From the NCBI GenBank assembly GCA_000746015.1, contig JQKK01000003.1:186001-250000 (forward strand): a stretch of 64,000 nt of DNA, in the 5' to 3' direction. Shown here one piece after another: positions 2,316 to 33,812 of the stretch. Position 1 is the stretch's first letter. Every line of letters starts with the position of its first letter. Made by a program: the position numbers and the translations under genes. The notes under the pieces are model-generated. The model was given only the letters and a program-made list of their open reading frames with translations, had not been told where the DNA came from and ran no database searches. This DNA comes from Lachnospiraceae bacterium MA2020. GTDB taxonomy: Bacteria > Bacillota > Clostridia > Lachnospirales > Lachnospiraceae.

Positions 2316-3776
2316 ATGGCAAAGGTTAGAACAAGATTTGCACCAAGTCCAACAGGAAGGATGCACGTTGGAAATTTAAGAACAGCGCTTTACGCATATC
2401 TCATTACAAGACATGCCGGCGGAGACTTTCTTCTTCGTATCGAGGATACAGACCAGAATAGAGAAGTAGAAGGAGCCGTTGATATCATCAACAGGACTCT
2501 TGCAGCAACAGGTCTTGAGCATGACGAAGGTCCGGATAAGGATGGCGGCGTAGGTCCTTACGTACAGTCAGAGCGTGTTAAGAGTGGACTTTACATGGAG
2601 TATGCAAAGAAGCTTGTTGAGAAGGGTGAAGCATATTACTGCTTCTGTACTCCCGAGAGACTTGACAGCCTCAGACAGAAGGTTGAGGGTACTGATAAGG
2701 AGATCACAGTTTATGACAAGCACTGTCTCCACCTTTCAAAGGAAGAAGTAGAGGCTAATCTTGCAGCCGGAATGCCTTTTGTTATTCGTCAGAACAATCC
2801 TACTGAGGGTACAACAACATTCCATGACGATATCTATGGCGATATCACGGTCGATAATTCAGAGCTTGATGACATGATTCTTATTAAGTCAGATGGCTTC
2901 CCTACATATAACTTTGCAAACGTTGTAGATGACCATCTTATGGGCATCACACATGTTGTACGCGGTAATGAGTACCTTTCTTCATCACCTAAGTACAATC
3001 GTCTTTATGAGGCATTTGGATGGGAAGTACCTGAGTACATCCACTGCCCACTTATCACTGATGAGGATCATAAGAAGCTTTCAAAGAGAAGCGGACATTC
3101 TTCATTTGAGGATCTTCTTGAGCAGGGATTCCTTTCAGAGGCTATCGTTAATTTCGTAGCACTTCTTGGATGGTCACCTGAGGACAACCAGGAGATCATG
3201 TCTTTGGATGAGCTTATACAGAAGTTTGATTATCACCACATCAACAAGAGCCCTGCTGTATTTGATTATGGCAAGCTTAAGTGGATGAACAGTGAGTACA
3301 TAAAGAAGATGGACTTTGAGAAGTTCTATGAGATGGCTGAGCCATACATCAAGGCAGTCGTAACAAAGCCTTATGACTTAAAGAAGATCGCAAAGATGGT
3401 TCAGACTCGTATCGAGGTGTTCCCTGATATTGCAGGACACATTGACTTCTTTGAGGAGCTTCCTGATTACGATATTTCTATGTATACTCACAAGAAGATG
3501 AAGACTACTCCTGAAATCTCACTTGAGGTACTTACAGAGCTTCTTCCTATCCTTGAGGCTACTGATGATTACAGCAATGACGCGCTTTATGAGCTTATCA
3601 AGGGCTATGTTGAGAAGAAGGGCTGCAAGAATGGACAGGCTCTCTGGCCAATCCGTACTGCAGTTTCCGGTAAGCAGATGACACCGGGCGGTGCAACAGA
3701 GCTTATGGAAGTACTTGGTAAAGAGGAGTCTTTGGCACGTATCCGTAAGGGAATCGAAAAGTTATCAAATAATTAA
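2316..3776 (+). CDS. gltX: glutamyl-tRNA synthetase
   Basis: Charges tRNA(Glu) with glutamate in the cytoplasm. The class I signature is clear: [11 protein letters not shown] near the N-terminus (HIGH-like) and KKLSKRSG in the middle (KMSKS-like). The length from ATG 2316 is 486 residues, normal for the family. An upstream in-frame ATG at 2262 would add 18 residues unlike any GltX and lacks a ribosome site. The start at 2316 follows a GTGAGG-like site and begins the conserved [14 protein letters not shown]. It is probably transcribed alone, since a strong terminator follows. Confidence 0.96.
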
Positions 3777-3787
3777 TGGAAGTATAG

Positions 3788-3815
3788 GCCCGTCAGATGC
3801 GTCTGGCGGGCTTTT
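3788..3815 (+). terminator. intrinsic terminator after gltX
   Basis: A 10-bp stem (GCCCGTCAGA with TCTGGCGGGC, one G-U pair) closes a TGCG loop and is followed by TTTT. It lies 11 bases after the gltX stop. A very similar stem is used in the terminator at 4846. Confidence 0.85.
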
Positions 3816-3878
3816 CATATTTACCCTAAGATGTAGAATGATACGAAAACACTTTTGGATTGAAATGAGGTATAATTA

Positions 3879-4508
3879 ATGACAACTGATGCTATAATTC
3901 TTGACGTAGACGGAACGATCTGGGACTCGACCGCGATAGTTGCTGATGCCTGGAACGAGGCGGCAAGAGAAATGAATGCTGATTATGAGGAAATAACTTC
4001 TGATGTACTTAAGAATTACTTTGGTAAAACAATGGAAGATATTGCGGCAGGATTATTCAGTAAAGTAGAAATAAATGAAAGATACAAGCTTATGCGACTT
4101 TGCGAAGAGAAGGAACAATCATATCTTCAGTCAGACCCTTGCAATATCACTTATGATGGTGTTAAAGCTACCGTAAAAGATCTTTCAAAGTACGTAAATA
4201 TTTATGTTGTAAGCAACTGTCAAAAAGGCTATATAGAGCTTATGCTTGAAAAAACCGGAATGTCAGAATACATTACAGATTTTGAATGCTATGGAAATAC
4301 CGGAAACGGCAAAGCGGATAATATTAAGCTTTTGATCCAGAGAAATAATATTAAAAATCCTGTCTATGTTGGTGATACCAGTGGCGATGCAGCTGCCTGT
4401 AAGGAAGCCGGTGTGCCGTTTATTTTTGCCTCATATGGGTTTGGAAATGTAGATGAATATGCTGCTAAAATAGATAGTTTTTCAGAACTTGTGGCACTTT
4501 TTAGATAA
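3879..4508 (+). CDS. HAD-family phosphatase (phosphoglycolate phosphatase-like)
   Basis: A 209-residue HAD hydrolase of subfamily I. Motif I, LDVDGTIWDS, at residues 8-17 carries the nucleophilic Asp. Motif II lies near VSNC and motif III/IV near VGDTSGDAAACKEAG. It should remove phosphate from a small molecule such as phosphoglycolate or a sugar phosphate; the substrate cannot be read from the sequence. The start has an AATGAGG ribosome site. It is 12 bases from the next gene and probably shares its transcript. Confidence 0.85.
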   Translation: MTTDAIILDVDGTIWDSTAIVADAWNEAAREMNADYEEITSDVLKNYFGKTMEDIAAGLFSKVEINERYKLMRLCEEKEQSYLQSDPCNITYDGVKATVKDLSKYVNIYVVSNCQKGYIELMLEKTGMSEYITDFECYGNTGNGKADNIKLLIQRNNIKNPVYVGDTSGDAAACKEAGVPFIFASYGFGNVDEYAAKIDSFSELVALFR

Positions 4509-21292: not shown

Positions 21293-23878
21293 ATGAAAAC
21301 TTATACAGTCCATCCGGGATTCACAACTCCAACAGCCAGGATTCCTAAACTGAAGGAAGCTATCATGAGCTCAAAGCCAGCTATCGAAGCTGAAAGAGCA
21401 ATGCTTGTTACAGAGTCTTACCAGCAGACAGAGTCAGAAGCTGTAGTACTCAGACATGCAAAAGCTTTTGCTCATGTTCTTGAGAATTTACCAATAGTTA
21501 TCAGAGATAACGAGCTTATCGTTGGTACAGCTACAAAGGGATCAAGAAACTGCCAGATGTTCCCTGAGTTTGGTTTCCAGGGCCTGACAGAGGAGTGGGA
21601 TACAGTTGCAACAAGATCTGCTGATCCTTTCCAGCTTTCACCAGATGTAAGAGCAAAGCTTGAGTCAATAGTTCCATATTGGAAAGGAAAGACAACAAGT
21701 GAGCTCGCAATGCGTCTCATGAGTGATGAAGCAAAGAAGGCTATTGAGAATGGTTTCATTGCAGCTGGTAACTATCTTCAGGGTGGTGTAGGACATATAG
21801 CTGTAGATTACGGCAAAGTACTTAATAAAGGTATCAGAGGAATCTTTGATGAGATCATTACAGCAATGCAGAATGCTGATAAGAAAGATCCTGAATGGCT
21901 TAATAAGGAGCAGTACTACAAAGCATGTCTTATCGGATGTAAGGCTGTTATCACTTTTGCAAACCGCTACAGCGCAAAGGCAAAGGAACTTGCAGCTTCA
22001 TGTTCAGATCCTGTAAGAAAAGCAGAATTGAACAAGATCGCAGAAATCTGCGCAAGAGTACCTGAATATCCGGCACAGAATTTCTATGAGGCATTGCAGT
22101 CATTCTGGTTCATACAGCTTACAATTCAGATTGAGAGTTCAGGACATTCGATCTCACCTGGACGTTTTGACCAGTACATGTTCCCATTCTATGACAGAGA
22201 TGAGAACATTACTCAGGATGAGGCTCAGGAGCTTCTTGACTGTCTGTTCATTAAGTTCTCAGACCTCAATAAGCTCCGTGATATAGGCACAGCTACAGCA
22301 TTTGCAGGATATCAGCTCTGGCAGAACATTAACTGCGGCGGTCAGACTCCTGACGGAAAAGATGCTACAAATGCAATGTCATATATGGAAATAGAAGCAA
22401 TGGCTCATACCATGATGTACATGCCTTCTCTTTCAATCCGTGTATGGAGTGGAACACCTGATGACTTCCTTATCAAAGCATGTGAGCTTGCAAGAATGGG
22501 CGGCGGACAGCCTGCATTCTACAATGATGAGGAAATCGTACCTGCAAAGGTAAACAGAGGTGAATCACTTGAAGAGGCAAGAAACTATGCCGTTATCGGA
22601 TGTGTAGAGCCTGCAACTCAGGGTAAGGAATTTGGCTGGCATGATGCCGCACTTTTCAATCTTCCTCTTGTTCTTGAAGTTGCAATGAATAATGGTCGTC
22701 TTCACGGCGAGCAGATCGGTCCTAAGACTGGTGAATTCAAAGACTTCAAGTGCTTTGATGAGTTCCTTGAGGCATATAAAGAGCAGATGAGATACTTCGT
22801 ATCACTTCTGGTACGTGTAGACAATGCTGTTGACTATGCTCACATGCAGCTCGGAAGACTGGCATTTGTTTCAACACTTGAAGATGACTGTATCGCAAAG
22901 GGCAAGACTCTTGAAGAAGGCGGTGCTAAATATAACTTCACCGGACCACAGGGTATCGGTGCTGCAAACGTAGGTAATGCACTCTTTGCAGTAAAGAAGC
23001 TTGTATTTGATGATAAGTCTTTGAGCCTTGAAGAGCTTAAGGAAGCTATCGATCATAACTTCGGTAAGCCTGAGGGAACAGAAAACGTAACGGTTGCAAG
23101 TATTACTTCGACACCTTCAAATGTTGCATATGACAACGTCCTTGATGCAGTGAAGAAAGTACTTGGGGAGTATTCAAACTTTGATGTATCAAAGATAGAT
23201 GTTGATGCTATAACAAGCAGAGTTGCCGGAACAACAGCAGCTTCAGCTCCTGCAGCAACTGGCAAAGAAGCTCGTTATCAGCAGATTCATGACATGATCA
23301 TGGCTTGTCATAAGTTTGGTAATGATGAGGATGATGTTGATGAGTATGCACGTATCGGTACAAGATGTTACTGCGAAGAGCTCGAGACATATCCTACACC
23401 AAGAGGCGGTATCTTCAATGCAGGTCTCTATCCTGTATCCGGAAACGTTCTTCTGGGCTCATTCATAGGAGCTACTCCTGATGGACGTTATAAGGGCGAG
23501 ACAATCGCAGATGGTGTTTCACCAACCAGAGGAACTGATGTAAATGGTCCTACAGCAGCATCCAACTCTGTTGCAAAGCTTGACCACTTCATCGCTTCAA
23601 ACGGTACACTTTACAACATGAAGTTTTCACCTTCTGCAATGGCTGGAACAGAAGGAGTACGTAACCTTGCATCACTTATCAGAGGCTATTTCGATAGAAA
23701 GGGCGGACACGTTCAGTTCAACGTTATCGATAGAAAGACTCTTCTCGATGCACAGGCTCATCCTGAAAACTATCGTGACCTCATTGTCAGAGTTGCAGGA
23801 TATTCAGCACAGTTTATCGCACTTGATAAGACAGTGCAGGATGATATCATCTGCCGTACAGAATTTGACAGATTTTAA
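21293..23878 (+). CDS. glycyl-radical diol dehydratase (propane-1,2-diol/glycerol dehydratase type)
   Basis: An 861-residue glycyl-radical enzyme. The thiyl Cys437 and Glu439 lie in GCVEP; the radical Gly836 lies in VRVAGYSAQF. Substrate-site motifs GGVGHIAVDYGKVL and ESSGHSISPGRFDQYM match B12-independent propanediol and glycerol dehydratases rather than choline lyase or pyruvate formate-lyase. It should dehydrate 1,2-propanediol to propionaldehyde (or glycerol to 3-hydroxypropionaldehyde) inside the shell. There is an Ala/Thr-rich linker near residue 650 (TTAASAPAATG). The activase follows by 26 bases. No sugar-phosphate aldolase is present, so the diol is presumably taken up or made elsewhere. 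Confidence 0.88.
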   Translation: MKTYTVHPGFTTPTARIPKLKEAIMSSKPAIEAERAMLVTESYQQTESEAVVLRHAKAFAHVLENLPIVIRDNELIVGTATKGSRNCQMFPEFGFQGLTEEWDTVATRSADPFQLSPDVRAKLESIVPYWKGKTTSELAMRLMSDEAKKAIENGFIAAGNYLQGGVGHIAVDYGKVLNKGIRGIFDEIITAMQNADKKDPEWLNKEQYYKACLIGCKAVITFANRYSAKAKELAASCSDPVRKAELNKIAEICARVPEYPAQNFYEALQSFWFIQLTIQIESSGHSISPGRFDQYMFPFYDRDENITQDEAQELLDCLFIKFSDLNKLRDIGTATAFAGYQLWQNINCGGQTPDGKDATNAMSYMEIEAMAHTMMYMPSLSIRVWSGTPDDFLIKACELARMGGGQPAFYNDEEIVPAKVNRGESLEEARNYAVIGCVEPATQGKEFGWHDAALFNLPLVLEVAMNNGRLHGEQIGPKTGEFKDFKCFDEFLEAYKEQMRYFVSLLVRVDNAVDYAHMQLGRLAFVSTLEDDCIAKGKTLEEGGAKYNFTGPQGIGAANVGNALFAVKKLVFDDKSLSLEELKEAIDHNFGKPEGTENVTVASITSTPSNVAYDNVLDAVKKVLGEYSNFDVSKIDVDAITSRVAGTTAASAPAATGKEARYQQIHDMIMACHKFGNDEDDVDEYARIGTRCYCEELETYPTPRGGIFNAGLYPVSGNVLLGSFIGATPDGRYKGETIADGVSPTRGTDVNGPTAASNSVAKLDHFIASNGTLYNMKFSPSAMAGTEGVRNLASLIRGYFDRKGGHVQFNVIDRKTLLDAQAHPENYRDLIVRVAGYSAQFIALDKTVQDDIICRTEFDRF

Positions 23879-23904
23879 AAAATAAATAAAAGGAACAGAT
23901 TTGA

Positions 23905-24669
23905 ATGGATATCGATTACGAAAAACGGGCATGTGTCTTTAACATTCAAAGGTTTTCTGTTCATGATGGTCCCGGAATACGCACGATCGTATTCATAAAA
24001 GGTTGTCCGCTGAGATGTAAATGGTGCTTTAACCCGGAGTCTCAAAACCCGGATCCTGAAGCTGGATATGGGGAAATGATGAGTGTCAGAGAGGTCTATG
24101 AAGAGATTAAAAAAGATCAGGTGACATATCGTCGTTCCGGTGGAGGTATCACATTCTCTGGGGGAGAAGCGCTGACTCAGCCGGACTTCCTTGAGGAAAT
24201 CATACATGTTTGTCAGATGAATGGCTGGAGTACCGCAATAGAGACTACAGCCTGTGTTTCCGAAGATATTCTCAGGCGGATAATACCTCAGCTTGACTAT
24301 GTAATGATGGACTTAAAGGCCATTCCGCCGGATGTTCACAAGGCGGGAACAGGAATGAGTAATGAAAAGATACTCGAAAATGCATTTCTGGTAAACAGTC
24401 TTGCAAAAAAACTTGTAGTAAGGGTACCTGTTATCCCCGGGTTTAATTACAGCGAAGAACAGATCTTATATATTGCAAAATTTTCCAAATACCTTGATAA
24501 GGTGGACACGATTCACCTGCTACCGTACATGACAATGGGTAAGAAAAAGTATGAACTGCTCGGAAAAACGTATGAACTTGGAGATACAGAGCCACTACAT
24601 GAAGAAGACCTGGAAAGTCTGAAAGAAATTGTTATCAATAATGGATTTAATTGCGTGATAGGAGGATAG
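23905..24669 (+). CDS. glycyl-radical enzyme activase (radical SAM), short form
   Basis: A 254-residue radical SAM activase that installs the glycyl radical in the dehydratase encoded just before it. The SAM-cluster motif is CPLRCKWC; SFSVHDGPGIRT and GGGITFSGGEAL are family marks. Activases of diol and choline enzymes normally have a ferredoxin-like insert with two extra 4Fe-4S clusters between the CxxxCxxC motif and MSVEEV. Here only about 14 residues separate them (NPESQNPDPEAGYGE to MMSVREVY), so the insert is absent, as in pyruvate formate-lyase activase. Confidence 0.88.
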   Translation: MDIDYEKRACVFNIQRFSVHDGPGIRTIVFIKGCPLRCKWCFNPESQNPDPEAGYGEMMSVREVYEEIKKDQVTYRRSGGGITFSGGEALTQPDFLEEIIHVCQMNGWSTAIETTACVSEDILRRIIPQLDYVMMDLKAIPPDVHKAGTGMSNEKILENAFLVNSLAKKLVVRVPVIPGFNYSEEQILYIAKFSKYLDKVDTIHLLPYMTMGKKKYELLGKTYELGDTEPLHEEDLESLKEIVINNGFNCVIGG

Positions 24670-24671
24670 AG

Positions 24672-25469
24672 ATGCAGGATGATATTCTAGAGAAGATCCG
24701 CGCAGAGATAGATAAGAGTCTTGTAAGCGGATGTGATAAAGGAAAGGGAAAGTATGAAAATATGAATAGCTCAAAATGTAATCTTACAGAGTTTGTAGGT
24801 GCAAGCAGTGTTGGTGATACTATCGGACTTGTTATAGCCAATGTTGATCCTCAGCTTCTTGACGCAATGAAAGTTGAAAAAAAGTATAGGTCGATCGGTA
24901 TCATCGGCGACAGAACGGGTGCAGGACCACATATTTTTGCAGCTGATGAGGCTGTAAAGGCTACAAATACAGAGATCATCGCAATCGAGCTTCCAAGAGA
25001 TACAAAGGGCGGAGCAGGACATGGCTCACTCATTATCTTTGGTGCAGATGATGTTTCAGACGTAAGACGTGCGGTTGAAGTTACTCTTGATGAAGTAAAT
25101 AACAGGGTGTTTGGCGACGTTTACGGAAATGAAGCCGGACATGTAGAGCTTGACTACACAGCTCGCGCAAGCTATGCATGCAATAAGGGCCTCGGTGCTC
25201 CTCTTGGCAGATCCTTTGGTACTATCGTAGGTGCTCCTGCAGCAATCGGCCTTGTTATGGCTGATACAGCATTGAAGGCTGCAAATGTTGAGGTTGTTTC
25301 ATACTGCACACCAGGAAATGGAACAAGTTTCTCAAATGAGGTAATATTGAATGTTTCCGGTGATTCAGGAGCAGTAAGACAGGCTGTTATCGCAGCAAGA
25401 GAAGTAGGCATCAAGCTTCTCAGCACACTTGGTTCAGAGCCTGTAAACTCACAGCCATCATACATTTAA
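24672..25469 (+). CDS. pduB: BMC trimeric tandem-domain shell protein (PduB-like)
   Basis: A 265-residue BMC-T protein with two tandem BMC domains (TEFVGASSVGDTIGLVIANV, and GTIVGAPAAIGLVMADTALK). Three copies form a pseudohexamer tile with a gated pore. The ATG at 24672 follows GGAGGATAGAG and starts MQDDILEKIRAEI. The 30-residue N-terminal extension resembles that of PduB, where it links shell to cargo. An internal ATG at MNSSKCNLTEFVG could give a shorter PduB'-like form. An earlier in-frame ATG at 24651 would overlap the activase and is less likely. Confidence 0.9.
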   Translation: MQDDILEKIRAEIDKSLVSGCDKGKGKYENMNSSKCNLTEFVGASSVGDTIGLVIANVDPQLLDAMKVEKKYRSIGIIGDRTGAGPHIFAADEAVKATNTEIIAIELPRDTKGGAGHGSLIIFGADDVSDVRRAVEVTLDEVNNRVFGDVYGNEAGHVELDYTARASYACNKGLGAPLGRSFGTIVGAPAAIGLVMADTALKAANVEVVSYCTPGNGTSFSNEVILNVSGDSGAVRQAVIAAREVGIKLLSTLGSEPVNSQPSYI

Positions 25470-25870: not shown

Positions 25871-25909
25871 ATCCGGCAGTTTCAGCCCCCCGAAACTGCC
25901 GGATTTTTT
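25871..25909 (+). terminator. intrinsic terminator of the rightward BMC operon
   Basis: A perfect 13-bp stem (ATCCGGCAGTTTC at 25871-25883 with its complement at 25892-25904) is followed by six T bases. Confidence 0.92.
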
Positions 25910-26043
25910 GCTGTATAGGAAATTTCTTCGAAATTCCCTATACAGCAAAAACGCTCCGCGAGGATGCGACTGGTGCGCAGATGAAGTTTGCAAGCTTACG
26001 CTTGCGCGCACCAGCGCGCAAAGAGTCACGGAGTGACTCTTTG
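25909..26043. repeat. cluster of three hairpin-forming palindromes
   Basis: Three inverted repeats follow one another. First, 25909-25926 with 25930-25947: 18-bp arms with one mismatch and a 3-base loop. Second, TGGTGCGC (25971-25978) with GCGCACCA (26006-26013), containing an inner GCAAGC/GCTTGC pair. Third, CAAAGAGTCAC (26019-26029) with GTGACTCTTTG (26033-26043). The remainder of the 324-base gap up to 26173 is AT-rich and should contain the promoter of the next operon, which I could not fix. Confidence 0.75.
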
Positions 26044-26173: not shown

Positions 26174-27781
26174 ATGGGAGTGGAGATCAGTAAATATCTT
26201 GAAGGCGAACAATTGACGGTATGTATTTCCGGAAGGCTCGATGCGCGGGCAGTCAAAGATGTGGAAAAATCCATAAAAGAAGATCTGACATCTGATGAGG
26301 AAATAAGTGAAGTACTGATAGATATGGAAAAAACCGAGTATATATCATCAGCGGGACTTAAGTTCTTGCTTGCTACTTATAAAGAAATTGTCAAAAGGGG
26401 TGGAAACATGACCGTGTTTCGCCCGACTGATATTGTGATGGAGGTTTTTACCGTTACGGGATTTGATAACCTCATACCAATAGAAAACTCTGCACCACAT
26501 CTTATTACAAAAGAAGATCATAGAGTTTATCCATTAAGACCTATACAGAGATGGATGATGGATACTCATTTCAATAAAGTAAAATCTACGATGATGAATA
26601 TGGGCGGAATTGCAAAAATTGATAATTCCGTCGATATGGAAATTCTGAAAGAAGCCATAAATATGACACTGCACGATCATGATATTTTCAGATGTCGGTT
26701 TGTGCTCGATAAAGAGACAGGCGATATCATGCAGCGCTTTGATGGCGACATCAGCGATATTGATATTGAAATAATGACAGATGATGAATTAACTGAAAGA
26801 CTCAAAAACCTGAGAGAGCCGTTTGAGATAATGAACGGTCCACTTTGGAGGGTTCGTCTGCTCCAGTCAGAGTCCTTTAGGTATTTCTTTGTCAATATTT
26901 ATCATGTAATTATGGATGGAGTTGGCGTGGTACTCCTGTTTTTAAGGGACATTGACAGGTACTATAAGGCTTTACAACAGGGAAAGTCTGCCTCTGAGAT
27001 AAGGCGCAGCAGCTCAAGCTATGCTGCATATATCAGAGAGGAAAACAATATCTCAGACGAAGAAATGAAAGAGGGAGAATTATACTGGAAAAAAATGTTG
27101 GAGGGATATTCAAGGGAAACATGTATCCCACCGGCAGATAAAAACGGGAAATCACAGGATGAGGAACTTGAATTTCCTATAGAGGGACTTGAAAAGGAAT
27201 TCTTTAAGAGCAATTCATATAATGAAAGCGCTTTCTTTATGGGAGCCGTAATGCTTGCAATGGCGAAGGCAACAAAGCAGAAGAAAGCGATAATAAGCTG
27301 GGTACATAATGGAAGGACTACAGCAAAGGAACTCAAGCTTATGGGAATTATGCTTGAGCAGCCGCCTATACGCTGGGATTTTGATGAAGATATGAGTATA
27401 GAAAGCTACGTTGCTGCAATCGACGAAAGAATGAAGGAACAGATAAAGCATCGTAGAAGTCTTGCAGCTGCATATGAGGGAGAAATGGACAGCAGGATGG
27501 TATGTTTTATCATGCAGAAAGGGGCAATAGGCAGACGTGGTGAAGTGTCCCTGGGCGGTGTAAAGAGTGAAATAATAAATGAGACAGAAGACGAAGAGAG
27601 TGTTGCAGAAAGCTCTATGGATATTGAGCTTAACGCTTATGATGATGGCAGGTATTCGATAGTTTTTGACTATGACAGTGGCAGTTATTCGGAAAGTGCG
27701 ATAGAAAATCTGTCAGATATGATAAAGGATATCATTGAAAAAATGAAGCAGGGCTGCCGTCTTTTTGAAATATTAAAGTGA
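26174..27781 (+). CDS. STAS domain fused to NRPS-type condensation domain
   Basis: A 535-residue protein with an unusual fusion. Residues 1-105 are a STAS/anti-anti-sigma fold; the SSAGL motif at 58-62 puts Ser59 where SpoIIAA-type proteins are phosphorylated. Residues about 115-530 are a condensation domain (VYPLRPIQRWMMDT at its start, and HVIMDG at 244-249, giving His244 and Asp248-Gly249 of the HxxxDG active site). The first His of the usual HHxxxDG is Tyr. It may join or transfer an acyl/aminoacyl group under control of the STAS part. It is the first gene of a four-gene operon, with a GAGGAGGG ribosome site. Confidence 0.8.
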   Translation: MGVEISKYLEGEQLTVCISGRLDARAVKDVEKSIKEDLTSDEEISEVLIDMEKTEYISSAGLKFLLATYKEIVKRGGNMTVFRPTDIVMEVFTVTGFDNLIPIENSAPHLITKEDHRVYPLRPIQRWMMDTHFNKVKSTMMNMGGIAKIDNSVDMEILKEAINMTLHDHDIFRCRFVLDKETGDIMQRFDGDISDIDIEIMTDDELTERLKNLREPFEIMNGPLWRVRLLQSESFRYFFVNIYHVIMDGVGVVLLFLRDIDRYYKALQQGKSASEIRRSSSSYAAYIREENNISDEEMKEGELYWKKMLEGYSRETCIPPADKNGKSQDEELEFPIEGLEKEFFKSNSYNESAFFMGAVMLAMAKATKQKKAIISWVHNGRTTAKELKLMGIMLEQPPIRWDFDEDMSIESYVAAIDERMKEQIKHRRSLAAAYEGEMDSRMVCFIMQKGAIGRRGEVSLGGVKSEIINETEDEESVAESSMDIELNAYDDGRYSIVFDYDSGSYSESAIENLSDMIKDIIEKMKQGCRLFEILK

Positions 27782-27819
27782 TGACATTTCGAAGTCAAAA
27801 GTAGGGGGAGTAGATTTTT

Positions 27820-30800
27820 ATGGATCAGGAAATACTAAAAAAACTGGACAGCTTTAATGATAACAGGTATGAGTACGATAAGAGCCTGACTGTGATTGAC
27901 ATGTTTATGGCGTCTGTGGAAAAATATCCGGACAACAAGGCTGTGGTTTTTAAGGATAAGGTCTATACATACAGAGATGCTGATTACTATTCGGATGTAC
28001 TTGCAGCATATCTTAGCCAAAAGGGTGTAAAGGCCGGCAAGGTAGTGGCGGTGCTTACACCTCGCTCTGAGGCAATGGTTTTGGTGTCGCTTGGGATACT
28101 GAAGACAGGTGCCGCATTTATGGCTTTGGATCCCGGGTATCCCGAAGAAAGACTTGGCTTTATGTGTGAGGATGTTGACGCGGGTATCATAGTAGCGGCA
28201 GACGAGCTTATAGAGACAGCAAAAAGTATCGCAGCCGGTAAGAGAGAGATAGTATTGCTGTCAGATATAGAAAAAATTGTTGCAGAGGGAAAGCCGGTAG
28301 AAAGGTCTTTTGAAGGACCGACAGCGGACAGTCTTTTTACACTTATCTACACATCCGGAACAACGGGTGTACCAAAGGGTGTAAGGCTCATTGAAAGCAA
28401 TCTTGTTGCGCATATCGTTTGGTTTGAAAAGGAATTTGAGCTTGAGCCGGGATGGATGCTGACAGCTCATAGCAGTTTTGGGTTTGATGCATCACTTCAG
28501 GAGATTTATCCGACCTTGGCGGCAGGTGCGGGAGTTGTTGTGATTCCGGAAGAAATAAAGGTTGACCTGCCGGCAATAGCAGAACTGGTGCGTAAAGAAA
28601 ATGTGCGTATAGTAATCTTGACAACGCAGGTAGGGCGCCAGTTTGCGCTTACAATGGACTGTCCTTCGGTAAAATATGTAATAGTTGGCGGAGAACGTCT
28701 TGCGCCGTTTGAGCCGGTATACCCGTATATTATCGCAAATGATTATGGCCCTACGGAAACAACAATATCCATTACCACTTACAACATAACAAAATATGAA
28801 GACGATTTCCCTATCGGTCCTGCACACTGCAATACGACTACCTATATTGTTGATGAGGATGGAAACAGGGTTGCACCCGGTGAAGTTGGCGAATTATGGG
28901 TAGCGGGACCTCAGGTGACGGGGGGCTATCACAATAGACCCGAGGAAAATGCAAAGGCCTTTATTACTAATCCGTTTTCAAATGAAGATGGCTATGAGAC
29001 GGTGTATAAAACTGGAGATCTGGCAAGCTATGAAGATGATGGTGTGATACGTTTCCACGGACGCAGGGATGGACTTGTAAAAATACGTGGCTTCAGAATA
29101 GAGCTTGAAGAAGTAGAAGATGCGATACGTTCACATCCTGATGTAGAAGATGCGGTAGTAGCTGCGTGGGACTCACCTACAGGTGGTAAGCTGCTTGCAG
29201 CATACATTATCTCAGATAAGGATATATCGAAGAAAGAGCTTACTTCATTTATCAAGGAGCGAAAACCATACTATATGGTGCCTTCATTTTTTACCAAAAT
29301 ATACAGTATTCCGCTTACTCAAAATGGTAAAGTGGATAAGAAAGCCCTTCCGAAACCGGAGTTAAAGGATGAAGAGTTTGTAGAGCCAAAAAACGAGCTT
29401 GAGGAAAAACTGTGCAGGGCCTTTGAAAAGGCACTAAAACTTGAAAAAGTCAGTGCTGAGGCGGATTTTTTTGATATCGGAGGAGACAGCCTCGCAGTCA
29501 TGCGTCTCATCGCGGACAGCCCGGAGCTTTTACTGTCATTTAAGGTAATATTTGAAGGACGTACCCCTGTCGGAATTGCCGAAAAGCTCAATAAGCGTGA
29601 GGAAACTGAAAGGCCGTCAGATAGTGGTAAAGAGGGCTATTTCTTTGGTCCACTTCAAAGACAGCATTATGATTGGGGCAATCAGATCGAAGAAGGCTTT
29701 GGACTGCATTGTGATGCAACAATACATCTCGGAAAAAATACTGATACTGAAAGGCTTGCGGAGGCAGTGAGGAAGGTAATACTTGCCCATCCTGCAGTGG
29801 ATGCAAGACTGAAGGAAATGGCTGATGGCGAATTGCGATGGGTACTGCCTGAGCATGGTCTTGATGATTTTAAGGTCGAATTAGAGCACTACAGTCGCGC
29901 TGAATATAATGAAATTCGTAAAAGTATCCGAAAGAAGATGAACCGTCCCGGTGAAAGGATGTTTGTTACAAGGATATTTATCATCAAAGAAGAGGATGGC
30001 TCTGAAACGGCTGATTTTTATTTTGATTTCCTGCATCCAATCATTGACGGAGATTCTATCGATATTTTTACTGAGGACATCAATGCTGTCTACAACGGAG
30101 AGGAGATCAGAGAGGAGGAGTATTCCGTCTTTGATTATTATAATTGCATTGAAAGAGAACTTGAGACGGAAAATTATCAAAAAGAAGTTAAGTGGAACAA
30201 TGATTTTGTAAACTCGTTTACCAAAAAGCTCAGCATTCTTAAAGGAGACCTTGATCCTAAGGATGAAAACGACACGGTGGATATATTTGTGAAAATAGAT
30301 GTCGACCTTGAAAAAATGGATGCATATTGCAGTGAGCATAGTGTGACGGAGGGAAGTTTACTTGCTGCTGCATATGGGTATATGCAGGCTAAGTGCAATG
30401 GTGAAAACAGTGCTGTTACACTGACAATATATAACGGTCGTGATGATGCAAGATACAATAGGACAATGGGTGCAATTTACAGACATCATCCTCTTTGCGT
30501 CAGATTTGACAAGGATATGTCGCTTGCAGATTTTGTAAAGCAGACAGAGGAAAATATTTTACTCTGTCGTGCGCATGCATTATATCATGCAGACCCCGTA
30601 CCGCTCATCACTGCTTTTGCATACCAGGGTGAGGATCTGCCTGAGAAATATGAGTTTTGCGGAGATATGGCTTCCTATGAGGAAATAGAAGATTATGAAG
30701 AAGAAAACTTTGATTTCTTTGTTCATCGCAGGGAAGACGGCTTTTATGTGAATCTTACTTACAATACTCTTGAGTACAGTAAGGAATTCGTTGATAATTT

Positions 30801-30876
30801 CCTCAGAAGTTATGAAAAAGTGATAGCTGCCATATTTGCATTAAAAGATATAAATTATTTGGAAGAAATAGTATGA
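27820..30876 (+). CDS. NRPS protein with adenylation, carrier and condensation domains (A-T-C)
   Basis: A 1018-residue synthetase. Adenylation about 20-520: TSGTTGVPKG near 178, FGFDAS, NDYGPTETT, YKTGDLA, and NGKVDK with the catalytic Lys. Carrier about 530-600: DIGGDSL with phosphopantetheine Ser557. Condensation about 615-1018: HPIIDG with His739 and Asp743-Gly744. My reading of the substrate-pocket residues is D-A-Q-I-I-G-D-I-S-K, which I do not recognise as a known amino acid code. There is no thioesterase. It lies 38 bases after the STAS-C gene and overlaps the MATE gene by 4 bases. Confidence 0.9.
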   Translation: MDQEILKKLDSFNDNRYEYDKSLTVIDMFMASVEKYPDNKAVVFKDKVYTYRDADYYSDVLAAYLSQKGVKAGKVVAVLTPRSEAMVLVSLGILKTGAAFMALDPGYPEERLGFMCEDVDAGIIVAADELIETAKSIAAGKREIVLLSDIEKIVAEGKPVERSFEGPTADSLFTLIYTSGTTGVPKGVRLIESNLVAHIVWFEKEFELEPGWMLTAHSSFGFDASLQEIYPTLAAGAGVVVIPEEIKVDLPAIAELVRKENVRIVILTTQVGRQFALTMDCPSVKYVIVGGERLAPFEPVYPYIIANDYGPTETTISITTYNITKYEDDFPIGPAHCNTTTYIVDEDGNRVAPGEVGELWVAGPQVTGGYHNRPEENAKAFITNPFSNEDGYETVYKTGDLASYEDDGVIRFHGRRDGLVKIRGFRIELEEVEDAIRSHPDVEDAVVAAWDSPTGGKLLAAYIISDKDISKKELTSFIKERKPYYMVPSFFTKIYSIPLTQNGKVDKKALPKPELKDEEFVEPKNELEEKLCRAFEKALKLEKVSAEADFFDIGGDSLAVMRLIADSPELLLSFKVIFEGRTPVGIAEKLNKREETERPSDSGKEGYFFGPLQRQHYDWGNQIEEGFGLHCDATIHLGKNTDTERLAEAVRKVILAHPAVDARLKEMADGELRWVLPEHGLDDFKVELEHYSRAEYNEIRKSIRKKMNRPGERMFVTRIFIIKEEDGSETADFYFDFLHPIIDGDSIDIFTEDINAVYNGEEIREEEYSVFDYYNCIERELETENYQKEVKWNNDFVNSFTKKLSILKGDLDPKDENDTVDIFVKIDVDLEKMDAYCSEHSVTEGSLLAAAYGYMQAKCNGENSAVTLTIYNGRDDARYNRTMGAIYRHHPLCVRFDKDMSLADFVKQTEENILLCRAHALYHADPVPLITAFAYQGEDLPEKYEFCGDMASYEEIEDYEEENFDFFVHRREDGFYVNLTYNTLEYSKEFVDNFLRSYEKVIAAIFALKDINYLEEIV

Positions 30877-32198
30877 AGAAAATTGAATTATCAGATCATT
30901 TTACATGCCTAAAATTGTTGATATATTCGATTCCTGCTATAGCAACGGCGATCGTCATACTATCGTTTTCGCTTGTTGATGGATATTTCGTGTCGAATCT
31001 TCTTGGAGTGACACCATTTGCAGCGGTAGAATTTGTTACGCCGGTATTTCTCGTTTTATATGCGATAGGTTTTTTGTTTGGTTCGGGATCAAGCGCCGTG
31101 ATAGCCAGACTTATCGGGCAGGAAGATATGGACAGTGCAAGGCAGTGCTTTAGTATGGTGGTAGTAAGCATGTATATAGTGGGTGTCATCATGGCAGTTA
31201 TAACCGTAATGTTGCTGCCGCAGATATTAATACTGCTTGGTGTTACTGAGGAGATATTTAAAGATAGTATTACTTATGGCCGCTACTTATTGATATTTTT
31301 GGCATTTCATATTATTGTAGCAGGTTTTCAATCAATATGGGTCACTACAGGGCGAACGGGTGTCGGTTTTGTGGTGTCATTGGTCAATGGAGTTACAAAT
31401 GTTGTTTTGGACTGGTTTTTAATATCCAAGGTTAAAATGGGTGTCGCCGGAGCAGGTATTGCAACTTCAATAGGTGCGATTGTAGGTACTGTCATCATCA
31501 TAGTATATTTCAGCATCAAAGATGATAGCCGGCTCTATTTTGTGCCCTTCAGATTTGATTTTAGACAGCTTGGCAACATAGCTTTTAATGGTGCATCGGA
31601 AATGGTTGATACTGTCGCAGAGAATATCACATCACTTGTCTTTAACAGGCAGTTATTGCATTTGATCGGATATGAGGCGGTCGCGGCTATGGGAGTTTAT
31701 AATTATGTAATGGGTGTCTTTTTGTCATTCTTTTATGGCATTTCAAGTACAGCTGTGACGGTTGTAGGTTACAAATATGGAAGGGGCGAAAAAGAAGAAA
31801 TAAATAGTTTGTTGAAAAATGGAATTATTCTAAGTCTGGTATTTGGCATGATTGCCTTTGCAGCGTGTATAGTGTTTGCAAATCCTATATCTGAGATCTA
31901 TGTGGGCTATGACAAGAACATTTTGCCTCTTGCGATACGGATACTTAAGATCAATTCTTTAAGTTGCATCCTCTACGGAGTAGTGGTTTTTATCGCATCG
32001 TTTTTTACCGGACTTGATGATGGACTTGCATCAGTGATAATTTCATTCATGCTTTCACTATTGGCTCCGGTCTTTGCTATATACACACTTCCCGTTGTCT
32101 TTGGCTTAGATGCGATATGGTTTTCATTACCGTTGGCAAGTGTTGTTTCAGTAATGGTCTGTATTATTCTTTTGAAGTTAAGGTATAAAGCAAAGTGA
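30873..32198 (+). CDS. MATE-family transporter
   Basis: A 441-residue integral membrane protein with about 12 hydrophobic helices and the MATE fold (LVDGYFVSNLLG early, GSGSSAVIARLIGQ in helix 2). It should move a small molecule out of the cell using an ion gradient. Its ATGA overlap with the NRPS gene makes export of the NRPS product the natural guess. Drug export or another substrate remains possible. Confidence 0.88.
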   Translation: MKKIELSDHFTCLKLLIYSIPAIATAIVILSFSLVDGYFVSNLLGVTPFAAVEFVTPVFLVLYAIGFLFGSGSSAVIARLIGQEDMDSARQCFSMVVVSMYIVGVIMAVITVMLLPQILILLGVTEEIFKDSITYGRYLLIFLAFHIIVAGFQSIWVTTGRTGVGFVVSLVNGVTNVVLDWFLISKVKMGVAGAGIATSIGAIVGTVIIIVYFSIKDDSRLYFVPFRFDFRQLGNIAFNGASEMVDTVAENITSLVFNRQLLHLIGYEAVAAMGVYNYVMGVFLSFFYGISSTAVTVVGYKYGRGEKEEINSLLKNGIILSLVFGMIAFAACIVFANPISEIYVGYDKNILPLAIRILKINSLSCILYGVVVFIASFFTGLDDGLASVIISFMLSLLAPVFAIYTLPVVFGLDAIWFSLPLASVVSVMVCIILLKLRYKAK

Positions 32199-32221
32199 GC
32201 TTTATCAGATAGGAGGTATTT

Positions 32222-33766
32222 ATGTGGGATGAGTCATATTTTAAAGAACTGGCTGAGAAACGTGCGCAGATCAGGGCTGGCGGAGGAGATAAAAAGATAA
32301 ATAAGCAGCACGAAAAAGGCAAGCTTACAGCAAGGGAACGTATTGAATTGCTGGTAGATAAGGACAGCTTTGTAGAGTTTTCCGGAATGCAGATATCTGA
32401 TGTCATGATAGATGATGCACATGGAAAAGATTTCCCCGGAGACGGTGTGGTTACAGGATCTGCAATGATAAATGGCAGACTTGTATTTGTCTCGTCGCAG
32501 GATTTTACTGTAATGGGTGGTACTATAAGCAAGGGAAATGCTAAGAAAATATGCAGAGTAATACAGTTTGCAATGGAAAATAAAGCTCCGTATATCTCGA
32601 TCAATGACAGTGGCGGTGCGAGAATTAATGAGGGAATATATGCACTTGATGCCTGCTCTGAGATATTGTGTGCAAACGCTACTGCATCAGGCGTAATACC
32701 TCAGATAGCGGTAATATTGGGATCTTGCGCGGGTGTATCATGCTATTCACCTGCTTTGATGGACTTTGTCATCATACAGAAACAAAACGGTCAGATGTAC
32801 CTTACCGGTCCGGACGTTGTCAAAAGTGTTTTAGGACAGGAGGTAACAAAGGAAGAGCTTGGCGGCAGCAGACTTCACATGGAGGACTCCGGTGTTGCAC
32901 ATTTCTGTTATGAAGATGATGAAAACTGCCTTGCCAAGGTAAGAGAATTGTTGGATTATCTTCCGCAAAGCTATATGGAGAAACCGGCATGGAAAGACTA
33001 TAGAGATATAGACTGGTCAGATCAGATAGAGAGGCTTGTAACGGATAATTCAAGAAAACCGTATGATGTCCGTCCGGTCATCTTTTCAATCGGAGACGGT
33101 GGTCAGTTCCTTGAAGTGCAAAGAGATTATGCTAAAAATATAATTGTTGGATTTGTGCGTATCGGCGGAGAGTCTGTCGGAGTAGTTGCCAATCAGCCTA
33201 TGGTCATGGCAGGCAGTCTTGACGCAAAGGCATCTGAAAAAGCTGCAAGATTTATTCGTTTCTGCGACGCGTTTAATATACCTCTGCTTGCGATGGTAGA
33301 TGTGCCGGGATATATGCCGGGACTCGAGCAGGAGTCAAGTGGTGTCATACGCAGGGGCGCAAAGCTGCTTTATGCTTTCTCAGAGGCAACGGTTCCAAAG
33401 ATCACACTTATCATGAGGAAGGCATATGGCGGTGCGTATCTTGCCATGAATTCAAAGAGTTTGGGAGCTGACTATGTATTTGCATGGCCGATAGCTCAGA
33501 TAGCTGTAATGAGTGCGGAAAGCGCCATTCAGATAATCAAACGTAAGGATCTTAAAGAGGCGTCTGATCCGGAGGCACTTAAAGAAAAATATGAGAAAGA
33601 ATACAGGGAAGAGTTTTACAATCCGTATTTTGCGGCTTCAATAGGAATGATAGATGAGGTGATACTTCCGAACGAGACCAGAGAGCGTATTCTTCAGGCT
33701 ATTGCCACATTCAAAAATAAGTATAAAGAGGGTCCTAAAAAACGACATAATAATATGCCGCTGTAA
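32222..33766 (+). CDS. biotin-dependent acyl-CoA carboxyltransferase subunit (PccB/MmdA-like)
   Basis: A 514-residue carboxyltransferase with both crotonase-like halves: SINDSGGARINEG and SCAGVSCYSPAL in the N-half, and VDVPGYMPGLEQE and RKAYGGAYLAM in the C-half. It moves CO2 between carboxybiotin and an acyl-CoA such as propionyl- or acetyl-CoA. No biotin carboxylase, biotin carrier or membrane decarboxylase subunit is nearby. It lies 23 bases after the MATE gene with an AGGAGGT site, so it is probably in the same operon. It could supply a malonyl- or methylmalonyl-type unit or be unrelated metabolically. Confidence 0.9.
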   Translation: MWDESYFKELAEKRAQIRAGGGDKKINKQHEKGKLTARERIELLVDKDSFVEFSGMQISDVMIDDAHGKDFPGDGVVTGSAMINGRLVFVSSQDFTVMGGTISKGNAKKICRVIQFAMENKAPYISINDSGGARINEGIYALDACSEILCANATASGVIPQIAVILGSCAGVSCYSPALMDFVIIQKQNGQMYLTGPDVVKSVLGQEVTKEELGGSRLHMEDSGVAHFCYEDDENCLAKVRELLDYLPQSYMEKPAWKDYRDIDWSDQIERLVTDNSRKPYDVRPVIFSIGDGGQFLEVQRDYAKNIIVGFVRIGGESVGVVANQPMVMAGSLDAKASEKAARFIRFCDAFNIPLLAMVDVPGYMPGLEQESSGVIRRGAKLLYAFSEATVPKITLIMRKAYGGAYLAMNSKSLGADYVFAWPIAQIAVMSAESAIQIIKRKDLKEASDPEALKEKYEKEYREEFYNPYFAASIGMIDEVILPNETRERILQAIATFKNKYKEGPKKRHNNMPL

Positions 33767-33773
33767 GGTTAGT

Positions 33774-33812
33774 CACAACCGCCTGCATCCTGAGTGGATG
33801 TGGGCGGTTGTG
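33774..33812 (+). terminator. hairpin ending the NRPS operon
   Basis: Ten-base arms CACAACCGCC (33774-33783) and GGCGGTTGTG (33803-33812) plus an inner GCATCC/GGATGT pairing lie 7 bases after the stop. Only a weak T-rich tail follows. Confidence 0.65.

Follow-up and report, generated by a model that had tools for sequence, protein, structure and literature searches.

A STAS-condensation fusion in a four-gene operon of Lachnospiraceae bacterium MA2020 and its possible control by partner switching

SpoIIAB- and RsbW-type anti-sigma proteins are the partners of STAS antagonists. A 64,000-nucleotide stretch of Lachnospiraceae bacterium MA2020 (contig JQKK01000003.1, positions 186,001 to 250,000; hereafter the window) contains a four-gene operon (26174–33766, + strand) whose first protein fuses a STAS domain to a condensation (C) domain of the non-ribosomal peptide synthetase (NRPS) type. 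The other genes encode an adenylation-carrier-condensation (A-T-C) synthetase, a MATE exporter and an acyl-CoA carboxyltransferase (CT). The likeness to the SpoIIAA-SpoIIAB and RsbV-RsbW pairs lies in the phosphosite Ser of the STAS domain, in an RsbW-fold partner encoded by relatives and in a SpoIIE-type phosphatase, and the difference lies in the fusion of these domains to a condensation enzyme and a transporter. We class the operon as a variant of two known kinds, the NRPS line and partner switching, and not as a member of the anti-sigma system.

The closest gene grouping that has been described is that of Methanobrevibacter ruminantium M1, published in 2010, in which clusters mru0066-0071 and mru0512-0516 place NRPS genes beside serine phosphatases, an anti-sigma antagonist and MatE, and a further cluster combines an anti-sigma kinase, an antagonist, a phosphatase and an acyltransferase (PMC2812497). 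In the available sections of that paper, the genes are interpreted as serving sensing, control of NRPS expression and export. Compared by description only, and within the same sections, the M. ruminantium genes are separate and the NRPSs are large and carry a thioesterase, with no mention of a STAS-condensation or MATE-RsbW fusion (PMC2812497). A survey of rumen gene clusters reports 5,346 NRPS clusters in 8,160 genomes, and the term STAS is absent from the portion of its text that was searched (PMC8241843). The open-licence literature yielded no paper that pairs a STAS domain with a condensation domain, and none that joins partner switching, a STAS domain and an NRPS; within that literature, the STAS-condensation (STAS-C) and MATE-RsbW fusions and the docking reading set out below appear undescribed. 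The first-pass annotation of the window knew of no described pathway with this gene set, and none was found in the literature searched, although the M. ruminantium clusters, as far as those sections go, form a similar grouping (PMC2812497).

The STAS-condensation enzyme and its operon

The STAS-C gene (26174–27781, +) encodes a protein of 535 amino acids (aa) with Pfam matches to STAS (6.5e-14) and Condensation (9.2e-48), and its structure is predicted with a mean confidence score (pLDDT) of 82.7. The SpoIIAA/RsbV-like STAS domain (residues 1–106; 26174–26491, +) scores 64.2 bits against TIGR00377, above the cut-off of 53.45, and is nearest to SpoIIAA among solved structures in an alignment search. 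Specifically, Ser59 (codon 26348–26350, +) aligns with a position that is Ala in the SpoIIAA chain of 1tid, which we take to be the Ser58 phosphosite of SpoIIAA. The phosphosite Ser is kept in all 39 aligned STAS-C proteins, comprising 35 from a first count, three that the gene caller had overlooked (L127, L129 and L154; L numbers denote loci and G numbers genomes) and the window protein. At the sequence level the domain thus has the phosphorylatable Ser of SpoIIAA and RsbV; unlike those stand-alone proteins, it is fused to a C domain. For L050 and L051, the only close pair compared (the L050 MATE lacks the RsbW-type domain, also termed HATP), a dN/dS of 0.13 indicates purifying selection on the STAS domain.

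The C domain of this protein (Pfam; 26522–27760, +) carries the motif YHVIMDG with catalytic His244. Residues H244, D248 and G249 are invariant in 15 of 15 aligned rows, the xHxxxDG motif is present in 66 of 67 distinct C homologues, and a fold search with the predicted structure returns C domains of NRPSs, among them the starter C domain of RzmA. The enzyme also matches 1l5a, presumably the free-standing condensation enzyme VibH, at E 1.5e-6 ('amide synthase'). Both have a single C domain outside a module of its own; 1l5a lacks a STAS domain, and its match is weaker than those of several integrated C and epimerization (E) domains in the same list. The first-pass annotation had named both domains of the fusion, but it had treated STAS as a label, whereas the domain points to a phosphorylation switch.

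Downstream lie the A-T-C synthetase (1018 aa; 27820–30876, +), the exporter (441 aa; 30873–32198, +; Pfam MatE in two stretches) and the CT (514 aa; 32222–33766, +; PF01039 Carboxyl_trans, 9.3e-169). In an open reading frame (ORF) reading of the window, the four genes are intact, share one direction and form one block with gaps of 38, −4 and 23 bases, the −4 being the overlap between the synthetase and MATE genes. The synthetase (Pfam AMP-binding, AMP-binding_C, PP-binding and Condensation) has its A part at 27910–29331, its T motif at 29404–29517, with the carrier Ser557 codon at 29488–29490, and its C part at 29707–30837, in which the motif LHPIIDG was read from the sequence (all +). Across the four proteins Pfam counts one A, one T and two C domains, and the catalytic motifs expected of an NRPS (HxxxDG and GGDSL) are present. 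Pfam finds no thioesterase or reductase release domain in any of the four; NRPSs without a dedicated release domain do exist.

The block is preceded by a terminator-like hairpin (25871–25904, +; a 13-pair stem followed by TTTTT) and by inverted repeats of 22 nucleotides (25905–25951) and 11 nucleotides (26019–26043), and is followed by a second terminator-like hairpin (33774–33812, +; a 17-pair stem with a weak T tail). The terminator scan, taken altogether, was not enriched (6 sites, against a mean of 5.2 in shuffled sequence), and the case for these two hairpins is made by their long stems and fitting positions. Coordinates and hairpins thus bear out the first-pass annotation of the layout, including the gaps, the overlap and the domain count. 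The upstream hairpin separates the operon from a microcompartment locus at 21293–25466 (glycyl radical enzyme, activase and PduB-type shell protein), which is a separate unit.

Recurrence of the set and exporters with an RsbW-type domain

A scan of one genome per species with two peptide patterns gave 15 STAS-C loci, in Lachnospiraceae, Oribacterium, Anaerovibrio, Schwartzia, other Selenomonadaceae and an unplaced Bacillota metagenome-assembled genome (L053); the source records name rumen or omasum for five, and deer, reindeer or sheep for three more. (L037, L039 and L040 are the same places as L050, L052 and L060, and L056 and L160 lie on one contig.) The order STAS-C, A-T-C, MATE, CT is common to the window, L038 and L050, and L049 has the same order with its CT cut by the contig end. 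The order in L048 is CT, STAS-C, A-T-C, MATE; in L052 it is CT, STAS-C, MATE-RsbW; and in L053, which has no CT, it is STAS-C, A-T-C, MATE-RsbW. The flanking genes differ between loci, and the recurrence of the set is more than chance. It supports the earlier proposal of one unit, probably with a common product and its export; scattering of the four genes among relatives would have spoken against that proposal, and the set stands together in L038, L048, L049 and L050. The four genes as such are not a fixed set, however, since STAS-C also occurs without A-T-C or without CT.

The set is rare in the host's family, with two of 299 genomes, the host included, matching at E ≤ 1e-30. Within the genus, 21 of 48 genomes match at E ≤ 1e-20, with the STAS part covered only in G000 (the host), G320 and G307; the G335 match is a STAS-less relative, and the others lie in frames of about 960–3950 aa that are ordinary synthetases. 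In a C-domain tree (68 rows, midpoint-rooted for drawing), the Lachnospiraceae rows and L053 form one group of nine rows (support 100/99). The window groups with L048 and L038 (100/98) within a group of seven (99/95), and L053, which has a MATE-RsbW, falls outside these seven. L038, L039 and L040 are on long branches.

In Selenomonadaceae, the family of Anaerovibrio, 79 of 189 genomes contain a relative at E ≤ 1e-40. All 31 places with a full-length STAS-C were fetched, and STAS-less places in part. A MATE with an RsbW-type domain follows STAS-C in 28 of the 31, directly or after A-T-C; these exporters are 573–610 aa long (542 and 547 in two gene models). A Cache-SpoIIE phosphatase gene lies within 6 kb upstream of STAS-C in 16 of the 31. 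The fullest order, sensor phosphatase, free STAS, STAS-C, A-T-C and MATE-RsbW, is found in L122-L126, and in L156 ORFs matching phosphatase, STAS, RsbW and STAS-C adjoin one another. In L127, L130-L137 and the Anaerovibrio loci, STAS-C and MATE-RsbW occur with A-T-C absent from the stretch examined. Loci lacking A-T-C or CT indicate that the conserved core is STAS-C plus exporter. DUF6056 membrane proteins adjoin the condensation and MATE-RsbW genes in L055 and L139, the latter also with a GT2 glycosyltransferase, and genes of similar appearance are seen in L057-L059. At these and the other relative loci, domains were called mostly with locally built profiles of few sequences, some proteins also being run against Pfam and NCBIfam.

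The C-terminal domain fused to these exporters is predicted with a mean pLDDT of 87.6, and all 19 PDB matches of its model at E ≤ 1e-3 are anti-sigma chains of the SpoIIAB, RsbW or UsfX type, most of them complexed with a STAS partner. The model thus assigns it the GHKL fold of SpoIIAB type, and a sequence search against solved structures gave one unconvincing match only. The N-box Glu is present in 78 of 82 MATE-fused domains and in 10 of 10 RsbW domains that stand alone or are fused to proteins other than MATE, whereas the N-box Asn is present in 27 of 82 and 10 of 10, respectively, a further difference from the known pairs. Loss of the Asn from most MATE-fused domains would fit a domain that is mainly a receiver rather than a kinase, with the kinase elsewhere.

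The window exporter ends with its MatE part, and alignment rules out a hidden RsbW domain. The profile of the MATE-type HATP domain has no match in G000 at E ≤ 1e-6. Identity of the window MATE is about 21% to the long, RsbW-fused MATEs, 50% to that of L050 and 31% to that of L048, values that favour exchange of the exporter. In the line leading to the window, the RsbW domain was lost or the exporter exchanged, and the window copy is derived. SolL, WgkD and GntT, MATE exporters of specialised metabolites that are named together with their pathways, are NCBIfam matches of the window MATE, all far below their cut-offs, and we know of no RsbW domain in any of them.

MATE-RsbW proteins also occur apart from STAS-C. 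Among 299 Lachnospiraceae genomes, 40 have matches to the HATP profile, at 65 places in all; of 40 loci fetched, 37 have a MATE-HATP gene, and L210, L212 and L214, which do not, were dropped. (In L231, the domain sits in a 552-aa protein that the local MATE profile does not match.) Switch genes lie within six genes in 19 of the 37 (PP2C in 16, STAS in 12 and RsbW in 7), against a chance expectation of about one PP2C neighbour, a rough yardstick from a SpoIIE density of 58 matches in about 33 Mb of 13 other genomes. The adjoining enzymes vary and include a formyl transferase with an LPG-synthase C domain, a GH3 amide synthetase and NRPSs; neighbours of the formyl transferase/LPG-synthase-C or GH3 kind were seen in L187, L189, L183, L188, L198 and L213 (L213, and LPG in L183, being called with local profiles alone). 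A STAS-APH fusion (3087–4262; Pfam) lies directly 5′ of MATE-HATP in L191. A profile built from it also matches L210 (5974–7143) and L218 (14725–16305), in one case with an additional RsbW. That STAS has been joined to two unrelated enzymes, with an exporter of one kind next to either fusion, is the strongest argument for docking.

The host itself encodes a complete candidate switch on contig C5 (L070, 5142–12531). Its STAS is a free protein that shares the YISSAGL motif, and it is accompanied by a SpoIIE protein and by an RsbW whose N-box is intact. By eye, this set lies among lipoproteins, an MFS-type transporter and a GNAT gene. A 219-aa protein adjoining the C5 STAS was considered as a MATE-type HATP domain and rejected, having no profile match.

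Synthetase, carboxyltransferase and product

The A-T-C synthetases of L048 and L038, which are nearest to the window by the C-domain tree, are only about 27% identical to that of the window, indicating that the product need not be shared; those of L049 and L050 are 63% and 56% identical. By these values, exchange has been freer for the synthetase than for the STAS-C enzyme. The A-domain code, read from an alignment, is DG[ATGC]DVGEV[SA]K in most STAS-C relatives (ending QVAK in L053 and EISK in L062), D[FV]M.DGGISK in L048, L038 and L060, and DAQIIGDISK in the window. Acidic residues in the code shared by most relatives hint at a cationic side chain, but the code of the window is different. 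In a C-A-T-C line without a thioesterase, the last C domain likely releases the product onto a nucleophile. In L140, L143-L146 and L149-L153, condensation genes without STAS stand ahead of genes for PotABCD-like polyamine transporters (sequence viewed in L140, L143 and L150, models run on three L143 genes, the rest by gene sizes), a hint at amines as substrates in the STAS-less Selenomonad branch only.

The CT is a full-length Carboxyl_trans protein, as are MmdA and other biotin-dependent carboxyltransferases. It differs from them in its ties to C and NRPS genes and scores 669.4 bits against TIGR01117 (methylmalonyl-CoA decarboxylase alpha), below the cut-off of 998.8. Close relatives, with at least 73% identity, are present in six of the 48 genus genomes, and in all six the CT shares a gene run with a C or NRPS gene: STAS-C in three, MATE-RsbW, CT and a two-module NRPS in two, and CT with a two-module NRPS in one. 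This constant association indicates that the CT belongs with these pathways.

The biotin carboxylase domain PF02785 was undetected in eight of nine CT-carrying genomes, the host included (several of the assemblies are incomplete), and was detected in 13 of 14 control genomes; it was found in the carrier G350, and also in G335, which has no close CT. Its non-detection in most of the CT carriers searched makes transcarboxylation or decarboxylation likelier than ordinary carboxylation. By eye, the host fatty acid operon (L224, 4300–11261) has a fused accD-accA without accB or accC, and host malonyl-CoA may be made through transcarboxylation; L223 of the host holds an oxaloacetate-decarboxylase-like set that includes a biotin carrier. 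A CT fed by transcarboxylation from the L223 biotin carrier, or one acting as a decarboxylase, fits better than an ordinary carboxylase. The idea in the first-pass annotation that the CT provides a carboxylated acyl unit therefore stands as to its tie with C and NRPS genes, but ordinary carboxylation as its source is doubtful.

Partner switching, competing explanations and meaning

Gene order, domain content, the conserved Ser and His, the fusions and the synteny lead us to lean, if only slightly, towards an operon that makes and exports a small conjugate, with partner switching acting directly on the biosynthetic enzyme and the exporter. The A-T part would load one amino acid or a similar acid, and the free-standing STAS-C enzyme and the terminal C domain of A-T-C would link the loaded unit to two partners. 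One partner would probably be an acyl group on CoA that the CT either supplies or modifies. Release of the product would fall to the last C domain rather than to a thioesterase, with export by the MATE. STAS would serve as a phospho-switch docking tag: a SpoIIE sensor phosphatase would dephosphorylate it, allowing it to bind a SpoIIAB/RsbW-type domain, and phosphorylation by an RsbW kinase would release it. With the binding domain on the MATE, as in Selenomonadaceae, L052 and L053, the switch could couple the condensing enzyme to the exporter upon an outside signal. The window copy keeps STAS beside a MATE without the domain, so its STAS would have to respond to a partner in trans, most likely a stand-alone one such as the host C5 RsbW/SpoIIE pair.

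Several observations weigh against partner switching of this kind. The window MATE lacks the RsbW-type domain and the HATP profile has no match in G000 at E ≤ 1e-6, so the coupling is not local here. Pfam HATPase_c_2 matched two of four long MATE proteins, both below the cut-off. Three of the 31 Selenomonad STAS-C genes have no MATE-HATP; L156 and L120 reach contig ends, and L062 is a true exception, in which a shortened A-T gene is followed by an unrelated 158-aa non-MATE ORF and then the contig end. For 30 of the 31, no adjoining RsbW kinase gene was called. STAS is missing from many Selenomonad C homologues, including some that still adjoin MATE-HATP, and 18 of the 37 Lachnospiraceae MATE-HATP loci have no recognised switch gene nearby. 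In L050/L051, STAS diverges faster than C (77% against 93% identity), with dS also higher. Finally, L052 (drawn as L039), with its MATE-RsbW, lies inside the window's group of seven beside L050 and L051, weakly supported (94/61), and with L052 in this position a single loss of the RsbW domain is not established.

A simpler account, in which STAS is merely a structural or dimerisation module of an ordinary small NRPS line with a MATE and no phospho-control, draws on the bare window exporter and on the Selenomonad C homologues without STAS. We consider it unlikely, as the phosphosite Ser is kept in 39 of 39 proteins, SpoIIE phosphatase genes and MATE-RsbW fusions adjoin the Selenomonad STAS-C genes, and L191 has STAS on an unrelated APH in the same position 5′ of MATE-HATP. 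Rather less improbable, though still against our expectation, is that STAS-C works as a CoA-dependent acyltransferase on a polyamine or on a component of the cell surface and that the MATE moves this substrate, A-T-C being optional. This would suit the loci where STAS-C and MATE-HATP stand without A-T-C, the PotABCD-like genes after STAS-less C genes and the DUF6056 and GT2 neighbours of L055 and L139; yet the window operon retains a carrier-bearing synthetase, the pot link is confined to the STAS-less branch, and the PotA, PotB and PotD models scored below their NCBIfam cut-offs. The explanation to which we give least credence has the switch genes acting on transcription through a sigma factor, the fusions being a by-product. 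It has precedent in the available sections on M. ruminantium, which read such genes as environment sensing and control of NRPS expression (PMC2812497), but here the STAS and RsbW-like domains are physically joined to enzyme and exporter; neighbouring proteins were identified only in part, and no search aimed at sigma factor genes was made.

Beyond this operon, anaerobic Firmicutes might have a whole class of export lines that are 'switch-docked' in this way, a generalisation that we offer tentatively and with more doubt than confidence. An RsbW-bearing MATE would recruit, under phospho-control, a STAS-tagged or STAS-accompanied enzyme, be it a condensation enzyme, an APH-like kinase, a GH3 amide synthetase or a formyl/lysyl transferase, and a sensor phosphatase would gate synthesis and export jointly without a sigma factor.

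If direct control of this operon is true, partner switching would act on a biosynthetic enzyme and its exporter themselves, and would offer a handle on the timing of small-molecule release by rumen and gut anaerobes. The fullest loci identify their own sensor, through its Cache domain, together with enzyme and exporter. The same arrangement may give another reason for the serine phosphatases and antagonists beside the M. ruminantium synthetase.

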